A stretch of 64,000 nucleotides of DNA from Croceimicrobium hydrocarbonivorans (GTDB lineage Bacteria; Bacteroidota; Bacteroidia; Flavobacteriales; Schleiferiaceae): NCBI RefSeq assembly GCF_014524565.1, contig NZ_CP060139.1:2425501-2489500 (forward strand), given 5' to 3'. Below the pieces are notes generated by a model that searched no databases, was not told the origin of the DNA, and worked only from the letters and a program-made list of their open reading frames with translations. The translations under genes and the position numbers were made by a program. Position 1 is the stretch's first letter. Each line of letters begins with the position of its first letter. Of the stretch, positions 58,478 through 64,000 are shown in pieces.

Positions 58478-59238
58478 GAGTTTTACTTCGGATCCAGCTT
58501 TGTGTTTTGTTTCTAACAATGGTTAGTGTTTGCTCGGGACAGAGCAGGTCTCCCGAAATTCGTATTCATACCGTGTCAAGAGTGGAATCCGTAGTGCATA
58601 TACTGAATGCGGAAATTAAGCTCCACTCCTCGGGTAAATTCTATTTGCTCAAGGAATTGCAAAGCTTGGGACCGGATTCTATCTTTCATCTGGCACTAAG
58701 GAAGGAACATATTCCATATGAGGATCTGTGGCAAGAGCAAGAGTCAGGGACAATTATTGATACTCTAAGTTTAGCATTAGTCGATTCATTTCTGAATTCT
58801 CTGGAAGCGAAACCACTTAGTTTTGCTTGCTATCTGGATTCTATGGCTTATCAGAGTTTTATGGTAGATAGTATTCATGAGCTATGGCAATTGAAAGAGG
58901 AGGGAAGTTTGTTGCCACAAGCCTACAAAAGGGATCCCTATAAGTTTGAACAATTGCTTTTAAGGCCTGAATTTGAATTTTCGCAACTAATAATGGTAGG
59001 GATACTAAGTCAGGATGGGGATACCCTTTGGTTGGAGTCCAGGAGTAAATTGAACTTTATGCTTCCTTGGCAATTGGAAGCGAAGGTTTATTATAATCCG
59101 TCTATTAGTCGAAGTTTATTTGCGCTCTTGAAAGCTTTGGGTGCCTATCCAAACCGTCAAGTTCTCTCTGGAAGAGGGACTCTGATTAATAATTATCCAG
59201 AATATTATGCAAATCAATTTCTTACAGAGGAAAATTAG
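58474..59238 (+). CDS. Exported hypothetical protein, coupled to the preceding gene
   Basis: A 254-aa protein with signal-like N-terminus MRVLLRIQLCVLFLTMVSVCSGQ. It is mixed alpha/beta with no motif I recognise. The AT content and the amino-acid style (many Leu, Ser, Glu) fit the host genome. It is the last gene before the repeat-rich boundary at 59.25 kb and translationally coupled to 58073-58477. Function unknown. Confidence 0.65.
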   Translation: MRVLLRIQLCVLFLTMVSVCSGQSRSPEIRIHTVSRVESVVHILNAEIKLHSSGKFYLLKELQSLGPDSIFHLALRKEHIPYEDLWQEQESGTIIDTLSLALVDSFLNSLEAKPLSFACYLDSMAYQSFMVDSIHELWQLKEEGSLLPQAYKRDPYKFEQLLLRPEFEFSQLIMVGILSQDGDTLWLESRSKLNFMLPWQLEAKVYYNPSISRSLFALLKALGAYPNRQVLSGRGTLINNYPEYYANQFLTEEN

Positions 59239-59248
59239 ACTCGGTTGC

Positions 59249-59416
59249 AATGAAGTTCTTTAAAACGGCTGTTTTTTACTGAAAATGGAAAACCATAGTC
59301 AATAATCTCGGTCTAAACTTAAAGGTGTGTTTCTTGGAGATATACTTAAGCTCTGGAGTTCAAGCTTAAAATGAAAAAAGCCTCAGAGCTGTTGCTCTAA
59401 GGCTTCGCTAGTAGCG
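59249..59416. repeat. 168-bp direct repeat, copy 1
   Basis: It matches 59950-60117 at about 164 of 168 positions with no gap (offset exactly 701 bp). It contains a leader block, a minus-strand terminator (59374-59405) and the start of a tRNA-3'-end-like sequence. Duplicated non-coding DNA at a boundary to accessory genes. Confidence 0.92.
59374..59405 (-). terminator. Minus-strand terminator, repeat copy 1
   Basis: On the minus strand the 11-bp stem (59379-59389 with 59394-59404, one G-U pair, 4-nt loop) is followed by six U residues. It lies directly after the tRNA-like block at 59410-59464, the normal position for a tRNA terminator. Confidence 0.8.
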
Positions 59417-59464
59417 TGGCTAGGTTCGAACTGACGTCCGCCTATGGCGGATAAGAGCCCAACT
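59410..59464 (-). pseudogene. tRNA-3'-half-like remnant A
   Basis: Read on the minus strand: it has a gggctc element, a ttcgaac T-loop and an end ccacgctact resembling the 3' half of an initiator tRNA-Met gene, followed by the terminator. The anticodon stem is replaced by a small palindrome (tccgcc/ggcgga), so it cannot fold as a tRNA. It abuts the stop codon of the GIY-YIG gene. Interpretation as a decayed tRNA end is inference. Confidence 0.5.
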
Positions 59465-59718
59465 TAAAAATATCGTGGGAGTATTTGATTCCTGATAAAA
59501 TCGCGACCATGGCCAGACTTAAAATAATTTTCCTTTTCCATGGCCTCTTTTTTTGTATTGAAGCAACAAACTTCAATCACGAACCATGGTCTATACTTAA
59601 CAGTGAACCCCTTAGTGGCGAGTTGTTGATGTGATTTAAAACGATTAATAAGGTCGCTTGTGTAGCCAATGTATAGGCGATTATACTTAAAAGAATAGAG
59701 CACGTAAGTGACATACAT
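59464..59718 (-). CDS. GIY-YIG domain nuclease-like protein
   Basis: An 84-aa protein of the UPF0213/YhbQ-type single-domain group: YVTYVLYSFKYNRLYIGYT contains the YVL...YIG strands, NRFKSHQ the conserved Arg/His, and AMEKENYFK the catalytic Glu. Such proteins are predicted endonucleases and are often found in repeated copies in Bacteroidota genomes. It lies between copies of the 168-bp repeat and next to tRNA-like remnants, which suggests it is part of a small mobile or duplicated unit. Confidence 0.88.
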   Translation of the reverse strand: MYVTYVLYSFKYNRLYIGYTSDLINRFKSHQQLATKGFTVKYRPWFVIEVCCFNTKKEAMEKENYFKSGHGRDFIRNQILPRYF

Positions 59719-59800
59719 ATTTAAGACGATGAATCTCTTACGGGGGCGGTTTGAATTTAGAGTTTTTTTTGAAGCTTAGATGATGAGTAAGCCTAAAATG

Positions 59801-59832
59801 AAAAAAGCCTCAGGGCTGTTACTCCAAGGCTT
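59801..59832 (-). terminator. Minus-strand terminator, remnant B
   Basis: The same hairpin as at 59374-59405 with several substitutions (arms agcctcagggc and gctccaaggct-like, with mismatches), followed on the minus strand by a U tract. Confidence 0.6.
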
Positions 59833-59836
59833 TTCT

Positions 59837-59891
59837 AGTAGCGGTGCTAGGTTCGAACTGATGTCCGCCTATGGCGGATAAGAGTCCAACT
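59837..59891 (-). pseudogene. tRNA-3'-half-like remnant B
   Basis: It shares about 50 of 55 bases with remnant A by hand alignment (agtagcgg, gctaggttcgaactg, the tccgcctatggcgga palindrome, agagtccaact). It again precedes a minus-strand terminator. It lies between the GIY-YIG gene and repeat copy 2 and is not part of the 168-bp duplicate, so it is an independent, older copy. Confidence 0.5.
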
Positions 59892-59949
59892 TGTAAGAAA
59901 TGTGGTAATATGTGGTTTGGGAAGAAATTAAATCCTCTGCTAGCCTCGA

Positions 59950-60117
59950 AATGAAGTTCTTTAAAACGGCTGTTTTTTACTGAAAATGGAAAACCATAGT
60001 CAATAATCTCGGTCTAAACTTGAAGGTGTGTTTCTTGGAGATATACTTTAGCTCTGGAGTTCAAGCTTAAAATGAAAAAAGCCTCAGAGCTGTTGCTCTA
60101 AGGCTTTCCTAGTAGCG
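59950..60117. repeat. 168-bp direct repeat, copy 2
   Basis: About 98% identical to 59249-59416. The identity ends within gtagcg (60112-60117), at the start of the tRNA-end-like segment; beyond that point copy 1 and copy 2 differ completely, which marks a junction. Confidence 0.92.
60075..60106 (-). terminator. Minus-strand terminator, repeat copy 2
   Basis: Same 11-bp hairpin and U tract as in copy 1, preserved in the duplicate and placed right after the tRNA-end-like core at 60111-60132. Confidence 0.8.
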
Positions 60118-60132
60118 GGGGCCAGATTTGAA
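60111..60132 (-). other. Putative attachment site: 3' end of an initiator-tRNA-like gene
   Basis: On the minus strand the end reads ttcaaatctggcccccgcta plus ct, closely resembling the T-arm and acceptor 3' end of bacterial initiator tRNA-Met. No 5' half of a tRNA follows to the right; instead foreign-looking genes begin. This is what is left behind when an element integrates into a tRNA 3' end (the att core). Assignment as an att site is inference. Confidence 0.5.
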
Positions 60133-60189
60133 AATCAAGGAAAATCGCTCTGAATCCTGCATTATACCGTTGTTATATTGCTTCTAATT

Positions 60190-60210
60190 GTCCCGTATCT
60201 GTCCCGGGAC
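60190..60210. promoter_or_regulatory. Palindrome with extra half-site near the island end
   Basis: gtcccgggac (60201-60210) is a perfect 10-bp palindrome, preceded by another gtcccg (60190-60195). It lies between the putative attachment core and the end of the XRE gene. It could bind a recombinase or regulator; no direct proof. Confidence 0.3.
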
Positions 60211-60233
60211 AAATCGCGTCAACTGTAGATATA

Positions 60234-60524
60234 TCAATGCTTTTGGCGCAATTCGTGATTTTCTTCTAACACTTTCACGTACTTATCCTTTAATTCTTGC
60301 ACTTCAGGAAGTGGCAAAGCTTCAGGATGAATGTCTGTTTTGTCAATAAATAGGCGCGGATCAACCTTCAAGATTTTAGAAATTTCCTCTAAAGTTTGAA
60401 CAGTTAAAGTTTCTCTCTCTATGGATTGCCATAAACCAGTACGGCTAACATTTAATTTTTTGGCAATTTGATTCAGGTTAAATCCTTGTGATTCAATCTG
60501 ATGCTTTAGGAGTTTGTAGTTCAT
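60234..60524 (-). CDS. XRE-family helix-turn-helix regulator
   Basis: A 96-aa protein. GFNLNQIAKKLNVSRTGLWQSIERETLTVQTLEEISKIL is split over the five helices of a Cro/C1-type HTH (residues about 12-60), followed by KVDPRLFID and a short coiled tail. It is divergent from the operon at 60627, with an AT-rich 102-bp gap that should hold both promoters and operators. It resembles a phage or mobile-element repressor controlling the neighbouring operon. Confidence 0.88.
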   Translation of the reverse strand: MNYKLLKHQIESQGFNLNQIAKKLNVSRTGLWQSIERETLTVQTLEEISKILKVDPRLFIDKTDIHPEALPLPEVQELKDKYVKVLEENHELRQKH

Positions 60525-60626
60525 TAGTGAATATTATGCGAAAAGAATAATAAAATATTTGCTTAGTGTAGAAAATTCTACTAATATGTTGCTCAATATT
60601 TATTGTTTTAATAATAATATCTATAA

Positions 60627-60860
60627 ATGAGCAAAAATACAATAATTGAGAAAGCGCACTTAGAAGTGCGAAAAGGCATGGCCTTAAGATATTCGGCAGG
60701 AATGGAAATTCCTGATATCTACTCATGGGCCGCGAGTGAAACCGACCAATCGATAAAGTATCTTAAAATACGGCATCGTTTAGGAGAAATTCGAGAGCTA
60801 TTGAGGGAAATGAAGGCAAAGGAATTGGCTGAATTTTCCAAAATGCCTGCTTCAATATGA
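60627..60860 (+). CDS. Small hypothetical protein, first gene of island operon
   Basis: A 77-aa, mostly helical protein (MSKNTIIEKAHLEVRKGMAL, then a basic/acidic C-terminal helix RLGEIRELLREMKAKELAEF). No signal or membrane segment is present. It could be a phage-type small structural or regulatory protein; the family is not recognised. Its stop overlaps the next start by 4 nt (ATGA), supporting it as a real gene. Confidence 0.7.
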   Translation: MSKNTIIEKAHLEVRKGMALRYSAGMEIPDIYSWAASETDQSIKYLKIRHRLGEIRELLREMKAKELAEFSKMPASI

Positions 60861-61645
60861 AAGTGGCAATATTGACAGCCGTTTGGCAGCGTCCATTGAT
60901 TTGGGCAATTTGGCTGCAGCACCACTTTCCAATTTTTTCGGCATTAGATCATGATTTTACAATTTACGTAGCCGGAAATGAGATTGAGCATAAACAGCAC
61001 CTTGAAAAGTTTTCCAAAGCTTATGGTATATCCGTGGTTTGGGTGGAAGTTGAAAACCACCCTGTAAGTCGAAAATTTAATAAGGCTGCAAAACGAGCCT
61101 TTTCTAAAGGTTATGATCAGTACTGCATTATTGGCAGTGATGATTTAATGACTAAAGGGTATATCGAAACTGCATTATTGTTAAATGCTCCTATTTGTGG
61201 AACCAGGGAAGCTCCTGTAGTTAAAATAAATACAGACTGTAGCACTTATTCCACTGTTCGAGAGATCGTTCATCAAAATACGCCTATCAGTTATTTTGGA
61301 CCTGGTAAACTTCCTCTATTAGGATCTGCTCGCTTCTTAAGTCAAGTTGTAATGCAAGGCTTAAAGGGAAGCTTATACGATCGCATTATGAATTCTGGAT
61401 TAGATGCGGCATTAGACCGTAGATTATTTGCTCTACACAGAGAGATATCACTAATCCCCATGAGTTTCGAAGATGATACCGTGGTTTTTGTTCTAAAACA
61501 CGGTGAGAATATAAATAATTGGGTTTGGTTTCAACACTTAGAGAAATTAAGTGTACCAGATCAGAATATTCGCAAGTTAGAACTTTTGATTCGATCAGCC
61601 AAAGCTTTTTATGTAGAACCAAAAATAGTAAAGCAAGATGCATAA
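60857..61645 (+). CDS. GT-A-fold glycosyltransferase-like protein (island)
   Basis: A 262-aa soluble protein. MKVAILTAVWQRPLIWAIWL starts like a family-2-type GT-A domain. SRKFNKAAKRAFSKGYDQYC followed by IIGSDDLM (residues about 71-98) matches the pattern ahead of the metal-binding DxD-like motif; SDD at 94-96 would hold it. A later LPLLGSARFLSQVVM and DRRLFALHR could be acceptor-side elements. No membrane helix or signal is present, so the acceptor is likely cytosolic; DNA, protein or a phage component are possibilities. Substrate unknown. Confidence 0.65.
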   Translation: MKVAILTAVWQRPLIWAIWLQHHFPIFSALDHDFTIYVAGNEIEHKQHLEKFSKAYGISVVWVEVENHPVSRKFNKAAKRAFSKGYDQYCIIGSDDLMTKGYIETALLLNAPICGTREAPVVKINTDCSTYSTVREIVHQNTPISYFGPGKLPLLGSARFLSQVVMQGLKGSLYDRIMNSGLDAALDRRLFALHREISLIPMSFEDDTVVFVLKHGENINNWVWFQHLEKLSVPDQNIRKLELLIRSAKAFYVEPKIVKQDA

Positions 61646-62453
61646 AAAGGAAAATACTCTATTCAATATAGTGGTGCATGAAAATTGGCTTTATGATGCT
61701 GTACCAGTTCTTTCGGTTTGTATGCCGATTCGCAAAATGCATCACACCTATCATATTGCTTTAAAAGCCCTCTGTAACCAAGATTCGGACGTGCCTTGGG
61801 AATTACTGATTTTTGCTGATCATGATTCAATTACTGAAATAGCGTTACTTCAATATTTTAAGTTTTTACGAGAAGCTGGCTGCTGCCGACTAGTTATAGT
61901 AAAAGACAAGCGTTTAGATTATTCTTGCCATCTTTCCTATAAGTGGACTTTCCTTTTTCATATTGCCTCGCCTACTTCTTTGGTTTTTGTTCTGCAAGCA
62001 GCGGATTGTTATAGTGATGCCGATCGTTTAAGTAAGCATTTTAGGTATAGACTTGCACTATGGCAACATTATTCATCCGGTCACTTTTATGACTTAGGGA
62101 CAAAGCAATTAAGCCAATTTCGATTACCATATAAAGCTAAAACCGGATTGGACATGGCTATTCGAGCCCGGGAAGCGCGTAAAATTTCATTAGTCGATGA
62201 AACTAACAATGTTAGTAAATCGGTAGATGGTTGGTTATTCAATCAGGTTAAAGCAAATTTTATGCAAACCAAGGATTTAGGACCAAAGCAGCAGGGTTTT
62301 GATTTGCATGGTACAAATCTAATTAGCAAAGAAAGGGGGGCAATGATCAATAGCTTCTCACCTCCGTTTTTCCCTCCTTTAGATGATTTTGCTTTACCAG
62401 AAGATTGTATGGATCTATTAGCCCAGGCTGAAAAAGATTCGAAAACTGCTTAA
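61638..62453 (+). CDS. Second GT-A-like glycosyltransferase candidate (island)
   Basis: A 271-aa soluble protein overlapping the previous gene by 8 nt. VPVLSVCMPIRKMHHTYHIA and LCNQDSDVPWELLIFADHDS follow the first strands of GT2 enzymes (N-terminal CMPIR, then a D-rich strand), and VFVLQAADCYSDADRLSKHF gives a later acidic loop in the DxD position. It is a divergent relative of the gene before it in style, not in close sequence. A role in the same modification is likely from coupling; the acceptor is unknown. Confidence 0.6.
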   Translation: MHKKENTLFNIVVHENWLYDAVPVLSVCMPIRKMHHTYHIALKALCNQDSDVPWELLIFADHDSITEIALLQYFKFLREAGCCRLVIVKDKRLDYSCHLSYKWTFLFHIASPTSLVFVLQAADCYSDADRLSKHFRYRLALWQHYSSGHFYDLGTKQLSQFRLPYKAKTGLDMAIRAREARKISLVDETNNVSKSVDGWLFNQVKANFMQTKDLGPKQQGFDLHGTNLISKERGAMINSFSPPFFPPLDDFALPEDCMDLLAQAEKDSKTA

Positions 62454-62568
62454 TTCTTAAGCATTCAAGCACTTTTTAATAGACAGTGCATCATCCTAAA
62501 GTCTGCATTATCATGCAGGTTTCAGTACAACAATTATGTAATTAGGTAATACAACACGAAATAATCGG

Positions 62569-64000
62569 ATGTATATAGATCAGCAGGAAATCTTTGCTAA
62601 AACTAATGGTGGCCTTCAAATCATCTTAGATTACTATAAAAATGCACAAGATGCACTCGATAAGAAAGGTCAAAAATTTAAAATCAGGGATTCCGAAAAA
62701 ACCGCTTCAGCTTCTTTAAAGCAAACAAGTGATGGTAACTGGATTGTTACCGATTTTGGTGGTGATGGTGAACACCGCAACGGTATTCAAGTCTGCATGC
62801 TCGAAGAGGGTATTGAAGAATACCGCACCGCTCTACTATTTCTAGCACGCAAATATGGTGTAAAGGGTGAAGATGGTAAATCATTAGGTTTTGATCGCGG
62901 ATATGAGAAATTACCGATAGAGGATGGCATGGAGGAAAACCAATACCTCTATAAGATCAAGGATTTTACTGATAATGAGCTTTTGGTATTAGGGCCTGGC
63001 GTTACGAGAGAATTATGTCGAAATCACCATTTATATAGTTTAGAAAGCTACACTTATGTTTCAAAGGATAAGAAAACCGGTGAATTAGTTCAGCATATTT
63101 GGAAAAGCACCGATCATTATCCTGTATTTCAATTCAATTTTGAGAGTGGCCAAAATGAATGGAATAAAAGACTGGAGCCCAAGGCGCTAAAGAAATCCGA
63201 GCGCTTCCGGTATAATGGGCAACGTCCTAACGGCTACATAATGGGCTTACATTTAGCTCAACAGCGATTTGATAAGCTAAATGCTGATGTTTCAGAAGTA
63301 GAGTATGATTCTATGGATGAAATGGAAAAAGCGGAAAGCCGGCAAGATAAAAAGCTGCCGGAAATTATTATTTGTGGGGGAGATCGTGATGCATTAGCGA
63401 CGGAAGCGGCTACCGGGTGTACTGTGGTTTGGTTTAATTCGGAAACTGCCAAAATCACTTTTAAAGACATGAAAAAGCTTCAGCAATTGGCTTACAAAGT
63501 CTATTACCTGGGAGATATTGATTCAACTGGTTTAAAGGTGCAACATTCGCTTGGAATGCAACATTTGGACTTGCATTTAATACGGTTGCCTATGGACCTA
63601 CTTAAGAAAAAGGACCACCGTGGTAATCCTTGCAAAGATGTGCGTGAATATCTGAACTATTATAAAGCGTATGATCTTAAAAAGTTAATTGAGGTAGCAG
63701 TGCCATATCGTATGTGGGATGTGCGCTTGGTAAAGCATCCTACAATTGAAAAAATGTGGATTCGAAAATATGAAGTCAACAATCTACAACTTTATAATTT
63801 CCTCGAAGGAAATGGATTCTATCGATTTAAACTACCTAATGTAAAAACAGGGTATATCTATATCCGTGTACAAAATGGAGTAGTAGAGGAAATTGATCAT
63901 GTGGAAATTAAAGCTTTCATCAATCAATTTCTTGAAGGCAATAAAGCCGAGCCGGCATTAAGAAATGCATTCTATCGATCGCGTCAACATTTAGGAGAGC
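62569..64000 (+). CDS. TOPRIM primase-like protein, partial (runs off the right edge)
   Basis: ATG 62569 opens a frame still open at 64000 (477 codons). Residues about 15-75 (FKIRDSEKTASASLKQTSDG, NWIVTDFGGDGEHRNGIQV) resemble the fold of the CHC2 primase zinc domain, but the zinc Cys/His residues are absent. A TOPRIM domain follows, with EIIICGGDRDALATEAA (acidic motif) and VYYLGDIDSTGLKVQ (DxD). The tail, with RKYEVNNLQLYNFLEGNGFY, resembles phage/plasmid primase-helicase linkers; a helicase may follow beyond the edge. It is the strongest evidence that this island encodes its own replication. Confidence 0.78.
   Translation, partial: MYIDQQEIFAKTNGGLQIILDYYKNAQDALDKKGQKFKIRDSEKTASASLKQTSDGNWIVTDFGGDGEHRNGIQVCMLEEGIEEYRTALLFLARKYGVKGEDGKSLGFDRGYEKLPIEDGMEENQYLYKIKDFTDNELLVLGPGVTRELCRNHHLYSLESYTYVSKDKKTGELVQHIWKSTDHYPVFQFNFESGQNEWNKRLEPKALKKSERFRYNGQRPNGYIMGLHLAQQRFDKLNADVSEVEYDSMDEMEKAESRQDKKLPEIIICGGDRDALATEAATGCTVVWFNSETAKITFKDMKKLQQLAYKVYYLGDIDSTGLKVQHSLGMQHLDLHLIRLPMDLLKKKDHRGNPCKDVREYLNYYKAYDLKKLIEVAVPYRMWDVRLVKHPTIEKMWIRKYEVNNLQLYNFLEGNGFYRFKLPNVKTGYIYIRVQNGVVEEIDHVEIKAFINQFLEGNKAEPALRNAFYRSRQHLGE

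Follow-up and report, generated by a model that had tools for sequence, protein, structure and literature searches.

Gene content of the locus

The window analysed here (the whole 64,000-nucleotide stretch of Croceimicrobium hydrocarbonivorans DNA) contained at its right end the first 3.9 kb (60110-64000) of an element of 27,911 bp, referred to as copy A (C1:2485610-2513520). The left edge of copy A was formed by a 17-bp attL core, TAGTAGCGGGGGCCAGA, at 60110-60126 on the minus strand, identical in sequence to the tRNA-Met gene at its 3' end. Adjoining this core, and displaced by the insertion, was the native tRNA-Met terminator, an inverted repeat with a T run recognised by eye on the minus strand at about 60079-60107. 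Further left, outside the element, was a GIY-YIG endonuclease ORF (59464-59718, minus strand), which is probably an insertion unit that entered this tRNA tail earlier. GIY-YIG genes were seen behind tRNA genes, and duplicated tRNA tails often followed.

Beside attL was a helix-turn-helix regulator (60234-60524, minus strand), described initially as an XRE repressor. The regulator itself stood, but its HTH_3 (XRE) score fell under the Pfam cut-off, while the cut-offs for HTH_8 and, narrowly, MobC (23.8 vs 23.2 bits) were passed; a match to the PHROG for the terminase small subunit had an E-value of 0.08. It is likely to repress the divergent operon that follows on the plus strand (60627-62453), which was present as first described. 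This rightward operon began with a 77-aa protein (60627-60860; bDLD3 match below cut-off), followed by proteins of 262 aa (60857-61645) and 271 aa (61638-62453), the latter with a frame broken in copy B. Neither of these two had a significant database match, and PDB searches were likewise without a match; the 262-aa protein we take, by eye, to be glycosyltransferase-like. The TOPRIM primase-like gene noted initially started at 62569 on the plus strand and ran to the window's edge at 64000, encoding a primase-helicase that was intact in copy B (941 aa) and broken further right in copy A. It was 38% identical to a protein of Polaribacter phage Leef_1, annotated as 'DNA primase/TOPRIM', and 35% identical to its counterpart in Bacteroides phage BT-TP2. 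The rest of copy A, including an ATPase, a capsid candidate, membrane proteins, lysozyme and integrase, was located to the right of the window, as was the whole of a second copy (copy B).

Insertion site

The 17-bp core was found twice more, once after each of the two tandem units: an identical core lay between the copies (C1:2513521-2513537) and another at the right end (C1:2541439-2541455), in and beside an intact minus-strand tRNA-Met gene with a CAT anticodon (C1:2541441-2541514) that shares it. The initial annotation had placed a minus-strand, tRNA-3'-end-like core at 60111-60132 and predicted an intact tRNA-Met sharing it to the right. Both features proved real, but the shared core was confined to the 17 bp at 60110-60126, and the six bases following it, to 60132, were the element's own and not tRNA. 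A 23-base pattern (60110-60132) occurred exactly twice in the 4.04-Mb genome, against 0 occurrences of its reversed control; the third copy of the core agreed for 17 bases and then diverged, its continuation being the tRNA. Chance was excluded because the sequence from 60110 onward recurred over 27.9 kb at 99.9% identity. ARAGORN identified zero tRNAs within the window and Rfam found nothing at gathering score for the tRNA-like stretch there, which fits an intact tRNA located beyond the window.

An empty site was available within the genus. In genome G014 (locus L063), tRNA-Met ran directly into a near-identical terminator, which bore out both the terminator first described beside the core and the comparison proposed with a relative lacking the element. 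In each of the six further congeneric genomes searched, a tRNA-Met gene lay next to the flanking gene, and none of the six had a match to the element's ATPase. The locus combined a direct-repeat core at both boundaries with an intact tRNA on one side and a displaced terminator on the other, the arrangement by which integration into a tRNA 3' end is recognised. A matching tRNA and a recombinase were present, and the gene order was not that of a core genome; the proposal of an integrated element at a tRNA 3' end was supported by these sequence features.

Tandem copies

The two units were arranged head-to-tail, each of 27.9 kb and 99.9% identical, which went beyond what the initial annotation had expected. 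They differed by 1 mismatch and 20 gaps, many of these in runs of a single base. The element's 43 genes were chosen manually among the ORFs of all six frames, no gene caller being used, and their start sites are uncertain. Of these, 10 had a broken frame in either copy A or copy B and none in both, as expected of read errors that cannot be polished within a repeat. These patterns favour an assembly artefact, whereby one integrated copy was combined with reads of an excised, amplified circle. An excision-type junction was present solely as the att sequence between the tandem copies, which corresponds to the hybrid site that would be expected of the circular form (attP). This perfect hybrid junction stands against the artefact, and a true double lysogen would produce it also. 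On balance, an artefactual duplication is quite possible, if somewhat short of an even chance; it bears on copy number and can hold alongside the tailless prophage proposed below.

Element genes beyond the window

Each unit ended in a tyrosine integrase gene adjoining the core, in the direction where the initial annotation had expected one. Its 372-aa product (Phage_integrase, E 1e-11; phrog_1, E 3e-33) was intact in copy B and broken in copy A. The element also encoded a lysozyme and a second, M15-type endolysin. Phage or ICE structural genes had likewise been anticipated to the right; phage genes were indeed found there, but structural genes of tailed phages were not recognised, save for a lectin-like ORF that matched a 'tail protein' PHROG (E 3e-14). 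A PHROGs scan of all 43 ORFs identified no large terminase, portal, HK97 capsid or tape measure, allowing that very divergent genes could be missed, and a match of a 187-aa ORF to Phage_tail_L was below cut-off (E 0.05). In the 26 of 43 ORFs that were scanned with Pfam, there was no match to a relaxase, VirB4 or coupling protein, the narrow MobC match of the regulator aside. The N-terminal region of a 1247-aa protein matched gp43 of the tailless phage SSIP-1 (E 6e-13; 2.5e-18), a protein annotated as structural in JN880423, but as a DNA methyltransferase in RefSeq.

Membrane spans were predicted in 11 of 43 ORFs, six small ones being consecutive; one of the 11 was the ATPase, whose start is probably placed too far upstream, and the tally leaves out the lysozyme. 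Control phages gave 12/36 (P23-77), 10/30 (PRD1), 4/21 (PM2) and 6/57 (SSIP-1, a membrane phage), while tailed phages gave 4/48 (Leef_1) and 9/46 (BT-TP2); these counts overlap among controls and fail to separate the phage classes.

Packaging-type ATPase

The ATPase family was represented by 14 loci, of which one (L028) entered neither alignment. The first alignment (A2) comprised 13 sequences, including the false member L027, which was rejected as Maf-like by eye; the second (A6) was A2 minus L027. When the A6 profile of 12 sequences was compared using hhalign, it gave a probability of 96% over 150 columns with the P23-77 packaging ATPase and 87% over 132 columns with PM2 P9, while the best of five P-loop controls reached 49%, over 20 columns only. 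The value for PRD1 P9 (45%) was no better than the best control. Among PDB sequences, the STIV packaging NTPase B204 was matched nearly end to end (E 2e-7 with A2; about 2e-6 with A6). A narrower profile of the two closest ATPases (A5) gave 77% with P23-77, 18% with PM2 and up to 13% with controls, and did not find STIV B204 among PDB sequences. In the PDB lists, three recA fusion records ranked first or close to it through Walker A motifs matched repeatedly, and designed TIM barrels scored through partial matches; both were discarded. The ATPase of one relative (G416) matched a PHROG named terminase large subunit (E 1.4e-5). The profile matches identify the element's protein as a predicted FtsK/HerA-type packaging ATPase, the kind of ATPase that is characteristic of Helvetiavirae/Singelaviria (P23-77, SH1).

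The 209-aa capsid candidate

A gene for a 209-aa protein was located three genes behind the ATPase; in P23-77 and PM2, the capsid genes are two to four behind. Two sequences yielded a first structural model of low quality (pLDDT 49); it was replaced by one of moderate confidence built from five (mean pLDDT 63), in which 11 of 14 ten-residue blocks between residues 61 and 200 averaged 70-88. Beta strands made up most of this region, along with three short helices, and the model showed one beta-sandwich domain. Its structural matches (Z 4.5-5.5) included coat proteins of satellite virus, cowpea mosaic virus and SPV1 among other beta sandwiches; the best Z-scores, belonging to nucleoplasmin-type proteins, YomS, C1q heads and a Cry toxin, were tied with those of the coat proteins, and all fall in the range that a common fold gives. 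Foldseek returned no hit in the PDB at E 0.001 and a single hit in a viral library, an uncharacterised Harvfovirus protein; C1q-like proteins were among the viral-model matches. P23-77 VP16 and VP17 were absent among the structural matches listed, which does not exclude them. By sequence, the best hhalign value against 175 proteins of P23-77, PRD1, PM2, SSIP-1 and Leef_1 was 8%, and a PDB search gave two chance-level rows only (E 0.6-0.8). The protein was among the few of the element with relatives in genomes G416, G241 and G846, and a weak match was seen in G088 (E 1e-4). Considering the modelled fold and gene position, this jelly-roll-like protein is likely to be the capsid protein.

Relatives in genomes and virus collections

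A related element of 25.4 kb was identified in Phaeocystidibacter luteus LMG 25704 (G029, NZ_WBVO01000001.1), at another tRNA-Met gene with a 19-bp core, and matched 14 of the 43 proteins, three of them weakly (E 0.001-0.005). The order of ATPase, capsid candidate and small membrane proteins was kept in P. luteus and partly in G416 and G846. No similar integrase was seen in the stretches fetched for the G416 and G241 relatives. Pattern scans of IMG/VR with the ATPase, an ATPase pair, capsid alignments and the 1247-aa protein found no relative, although such scans need short conserved peptides and would miss distant ones. Neither the ATPase nor the 209-aa protein (hits of E 0.5 only) had a significant match among INPHARED phages by tblastn; a 168-aa protein and the ATPase of G004 gave nothing significant among phages, and a plasmid DNA search found no relative. 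Since IMG/VR provided no relative and INPHARED no significant match, prophage finders keyed to tailed-phage genes may miss this element.

Interpretation

The sequences show the repeat with its cores, an intact tRNA, a gene for the integrase and, within the genus, an empty site. The locus is probably best explained as a temperate, tailless and probably membrane-containing phage-like element of ~27.9 kb, integrated at tRNA-Met, assembled as two copies and known here from its genes. The morphogenesis genes suggest that the virion has no tail and probably contains an internal membrane. The tyrosine integrase would cross over within the 17-bp core; the tRNA would stay whole because the element brings in a replacement for the tRNA end and, on its right, a terminator-like hairpin. 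The regulator beside attL probably keeps the divergent replication operon silent. The FtsK/HerA-type ATPase would pump DNA into a preformed capsid of the 209-aa protein, lined by single-span membrane proteins, and lysozyme and the M15-type endolysin would breach the wall.

The same tailless, membrane-type prophage might instead use the 209-aa protein as a spike or C1q/TNF-like trimer, the true capsid being another, unrecognised ORF. The tied Z-scores of coat proteins, C1q heads, TNF-family ligands and nucleoplasmins, the C1q-like viral matches, and the two major capsid proteins of P23-77 where one candidate was found here, all lend themselves to this; but the gene sits near the usual P23-77/PM2 capsid position and is among the few with relatives in G416, G241 and G846, and this alternative is considered unlikely. 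A defective tailed prophage, or a satellite borrowing the capsid of a tailed helper, would account for the primase-helicase held in common with Leef_1 and BT-TP2, which have portal and other tailed-phage genes, for the tail-protein match, and for an integrase, regulator and lysis genes that are usual in tailed phages. This is improbable given 28 kb and 43 ORFs without a match to large terminase, portal, HK97 capsid or tape measure, and a module of ATPase and membrane proteins that was kept in a second element at another tRNA. A non-viral identity, as a genomic island or an integrative element that is mobilizable or conjugative, is more improbable still: a tyrosine integrase at a tRNA and the regulator's MobC score would suit it, but relaxase, VirB4 and coupling protein went unmatched in the 26 of 43 ORFs scanned with Pfam, and lysozyme, a second endolysin and a phage primase were present.

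A wider reading, rather unlikely at present, is that these elements are a temperate virus family combining one kind of single-jelly-roll capsid protein with a P23-77-type packaging ATPase, maintained in flavobacterial chromosomes; they would be a living link between the SPV1 state (one barrel, ATPase-less) and the two-barrel Helvetiavirae. 

Under the main explanation, a flavobacterial relative carried in the chromosome would be a genetically tractable, perhaps inducible, member. It would also bear on the origin of the two single-barrel capsid genes, since the archaeal virus SPV1 has been suggested to resemble the state that preceded their duplication (PMC8812541).

Comparison with known viruses

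The P. luteus element shared the order of its genes for the integrase, the ATPase, the 209-aa family, the membrane proteins and a counterpart of the 1247-aa protein, which was shorter there, but differed in length, core, tRNA-Met gene and primase. Of the three viruses compared by hhalign, P23-77 (Matshushitaviridae; kingdom Helvetiavirae, now realm Singelaviria) gave the best ATPase match. Its ATPase gene lies a short way ahead of the single-barrel capsid gene(s), as that of the element does ahead of the capsid candidate, and many small ORFs follow; its genome is a 17-kb dsDNA with a circular record. The element has 28 kb, and P23-77 has two vertical single-barrel (single-jelly-roll) major capsid proteins, whereas the element had one candidate without sequence similarity to them and no second candidate was recognised; the primase-helicase and chromosomal tyrosine integrase were features of the element. 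SSIP-1, described as a membrane-containing icosahedral phage (PMC6356626), shared the gp43 region as the only clear match among its 57 proteins, but has dissimilar capsid proteins and a genome of 43.8 kb. STIV and PRD1/PM2 are double-barrel capsid viruses, and the FtsK/HerA-type ATPases STIV B204 and PM2 P9 were matched by that of the element; in contrast, no double-barrel capsid protein was recognised here, the 209-aa candidate being a single domain in the model. Leef_1 and BT-TP2 have the primase-helicase in common with the element, but carry tailed-phage gene sets that include a portal.

Insertion site and tandem arrangement

The source genome comprised a single contig (C1; 4,035,598 bases), on which the window occupied C1:2425501-2489500. 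When window positions 59230-60240 were compared with this genome, a second, exact copy of all sequence to the right of the tRNA-like core was recovered. Self-comparison that took in the DNA to the right of the window resolved the element into two tandem units, A (C1:2485610-2513520; 27,911 bp) and B (C1:2513521-2541438; 27,918 bp). The initial annotation had placed a tRNA-3'-end-like core at 60111-60132; its left-hand part was indeed the 3' end of a minus-strand tRNA-Met with terminator, but sequence comparison defined the core proper as 17 bp at the left edge of the element (window 60110-60126, minus strand). The predicted intact minus-strand tRNA was found beyond the second unit, where the core recurred (C1:2541439-2541455, minus strand) as part of a tRNA-Met(CAT) (C1:2541441-2541514, minus strand). 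Its anticodon stem is GGG/CCC, which marks an initiator tRNA. No RNA gene was identified within the window itself by ARAGORN, or by Rfam at gathering score. A terminator-like hairpin was noted by eye just within the right end of each unit, and the rebuilt tRNA-Met gene would therefore retain a terminator.

The proposed comparison with a relative lacking the element supplied the empty site: in G014, a genome of the same genus, tRNA-Met ran directly into a terminator near-identical to the displaced one at window 60079-60107. A 680-aa gene to the right of tRNA-Met was present in all seven genomes of the genus (including the source) and adjoined tRNA-Met in each of the other six, none of which contained the element ATPase.

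Self-comparison showed units A and B to be 99.9% identical, with one mismatch and 20 gaps. Of 43 ORFs, 33 were open in both copies, four only in A and six only in B, while none was broken in both. Many differences were single-base changes within one-base runs, a pattern that resembles uncorrected read errors in repeated sequence. Units A and B may represent a genuine double lysogen or may have been produced by the assembly.

Gene content

Rightward from the left core, the element encoded a regulator, a 77-aa protein and two larger proteins (all three without significant matches), a primase-helicase, a cytosine methylase and small ORFs; then a 278-aa protein with a membrane span, the ATPase, two small ORFs, a 209-aa protein and a 181-aa protein; and finally six consecutive small membrane-span ORFs, a lysozyme, a 1247-aa protein, a lectin-like protein (marginally under the Pfam cut-off) and an M15-type endolysin. 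At the right end, a Tad2-like gene and then the integrase were read leftward; a tyrosine integrase had been anticipated further right. The Tad2-like protein (L007:9140-9463, minus strand) matched Pfam at E 4e-15, under a name that refers to Thoeris anti-defence. The lysozyme matched Phage_lysozyme (Pfam, E 4e-29); its N-terminal hydrophobic stretch was seen by eye only and was unflagged in the membrane-span count. The 1247-aa protein carried primase-like and zeta-toxin-like regions, and its N-terminal part appeared ParB-like by eye, although no search named it so. At L005:2681-6424 it joined regions similar to gp43 of SSIP-1 (a tailless, membrane-containing phage), to primase (phrog_19458) and to zeta toxin; the only matching counterpart in Phaeocystidibacter luteus was a shorter version, 453 aa long, that has the primase-like region.

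Pfam was applied to 26 of the 43 ORFs and PHROGs to all 43, at thresholds from 0.1 to 0.01. Large terminase, portal, HK97 capsid and tape measure were without PHROGs matches among the 43 ORFs at these thresholds, although a few weak matches pointed the other way.

Packaging ATPase and capsid candidate

The element ATPase matched 3 of 88 genomes in the family and 12 of 395 in the class, with the source counted each time; among the 12, the match in G314 was judged false, being Maf-like by eye. In hhalign comparisons, a 12-sequence family profile gave 96% with the P23-77 packaging ATPase over 150 columns, 87% with PM2 P9 over 132 columns and 45% with PRD1 P9 over 91 columns. The controls (Era, AtpD, a TerL, the zeta region and the primase-helicase) reached at most 49%, on 20 columns, and the PRD1 value is therefore not above control. 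A two-sequence profile gave 77% with P23-77 over 108 columns and 18% with PM2, against controls of up to 13%. Among PDB sequences, STIV B204 was matched almost full length by ATPase family profiles, and not by the two-sequence profile. In G004, a relative of the ATPase (L016:14491-16118) lay near a protein with the LPD1 domain of large polyvalent phage proteins; the family is thus shared by elements of different kinds.

The 209-aa family was matched in 4 of 395 genomes of the class (the source and one weak match among them), 3 of 296 order genomes (counting the source and a fragment in G030), 3 of 45 genomes in the family of G416, and the source alone among 395 in the phylum sample. A model built from five sequences had a mean pLDDT of 63; across residues 61-200, a chiefly beta part that also contains three short helices, the average was at least 70 in 11 of 14 ten-residue blocks. 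Foldseek placed virus coat proteins mostly on top in the PDB, none at E 0.001, and its one match below 0.001 in the viral library was an uncharacterised Harvfovirus protein. VIA-align returned tied Z-scores of 4.5-5.5 for nucleoplasmin-type proteins, YomS, C1q heads, Cry toxin, satellite virus and cowpea mosaic virus coats, SPV1 and others. Comparison with 175 proteins of five phages by hhalign produced nothing (best 8%). The protein is thus likely to form a jelly-roll-type sandwich and could plausibly serve as a capsid protein; no claim of membership is warranted.

GIY-YIG ORFs beside tRNA genes

To the left of the element lay two degenerate tRNA tails and a GIY-YIG ORF (pattern region at window 59249-60132, minus strand; also at L064, L073, L074, L079, L083, L089 and L098). 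A direct repeat of 168 bp, 97.6% identical, was observed at window 59249-59416 and 59950-60117, each copy ending with a terminator and the start of a tRNA-Met tail; elements that inserted there more than once may have left it behind.

Within the bacterial family, 38 matches to the ORF left 31 loci to be read (about 1.5 kb per side, less on short contigs), seven having no locus. ARAGORN found a tRNA in 20 of 31, compared with 0 of 16 control loci similar in size and unmatched for intergenic position; the source locus was among the 11 without. The ORF was placed by tblastn in 30 of 31 loci (no match at L055; probably spurious at L094). All 21 tRNAs at 19 loci shared its strand, 17 being upstream by 13-233 bp and four downstream by 4-90 bp. 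A copy of the last 28 bases of the tRNA followed the ORF at 7 of 15 loci with an upstream tRNA, two of the seven (L073 and L095) being one tandem array; 24-28 bases were identical, against at most 18 in shuffles. In the duplicated 3' half, the anticodon arm was replaced by a palindrome (by eye) ahead of the tail, as in the Met example TTATCCGCC-CAA-GGCGGA. ORF and tail may constitute a small, as yet undescribed, selfish unit of tRNA genes. None of the literature titles listed concerned such units; the nearest were a review on group I introns in bacteria (PMC3984707) and a paper on phage homing endonucleases (PMC13096335).

Related elements

In P. luteus, 14 of 43 element proteins were matched (three at E 0.001-0.005), and the element there, of 25,367 bp, was flanked by 19-bp cores at another tRNA-Met. 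G030 held a decayed remnant with an integrase relative. G416 and G241 possessed the 209-aa family and a primase, G416 additionally having an ATPase and several small membrane-span ORFs; no integrase similar to that of the element occurred in the stretches fetched from either. Their 209-aa-family elements (L034/L035 and L036/L037, respectively) adjoined gyrA- and clpC-like genes, named by eye. The literature titles listed included none on such an element in Flavobacteriales, which leaves absence unproven. Putative archaeal proviruses related to sphaerolipoviruses are described with an integrase and tRNA genes nearby (PMC5332951).
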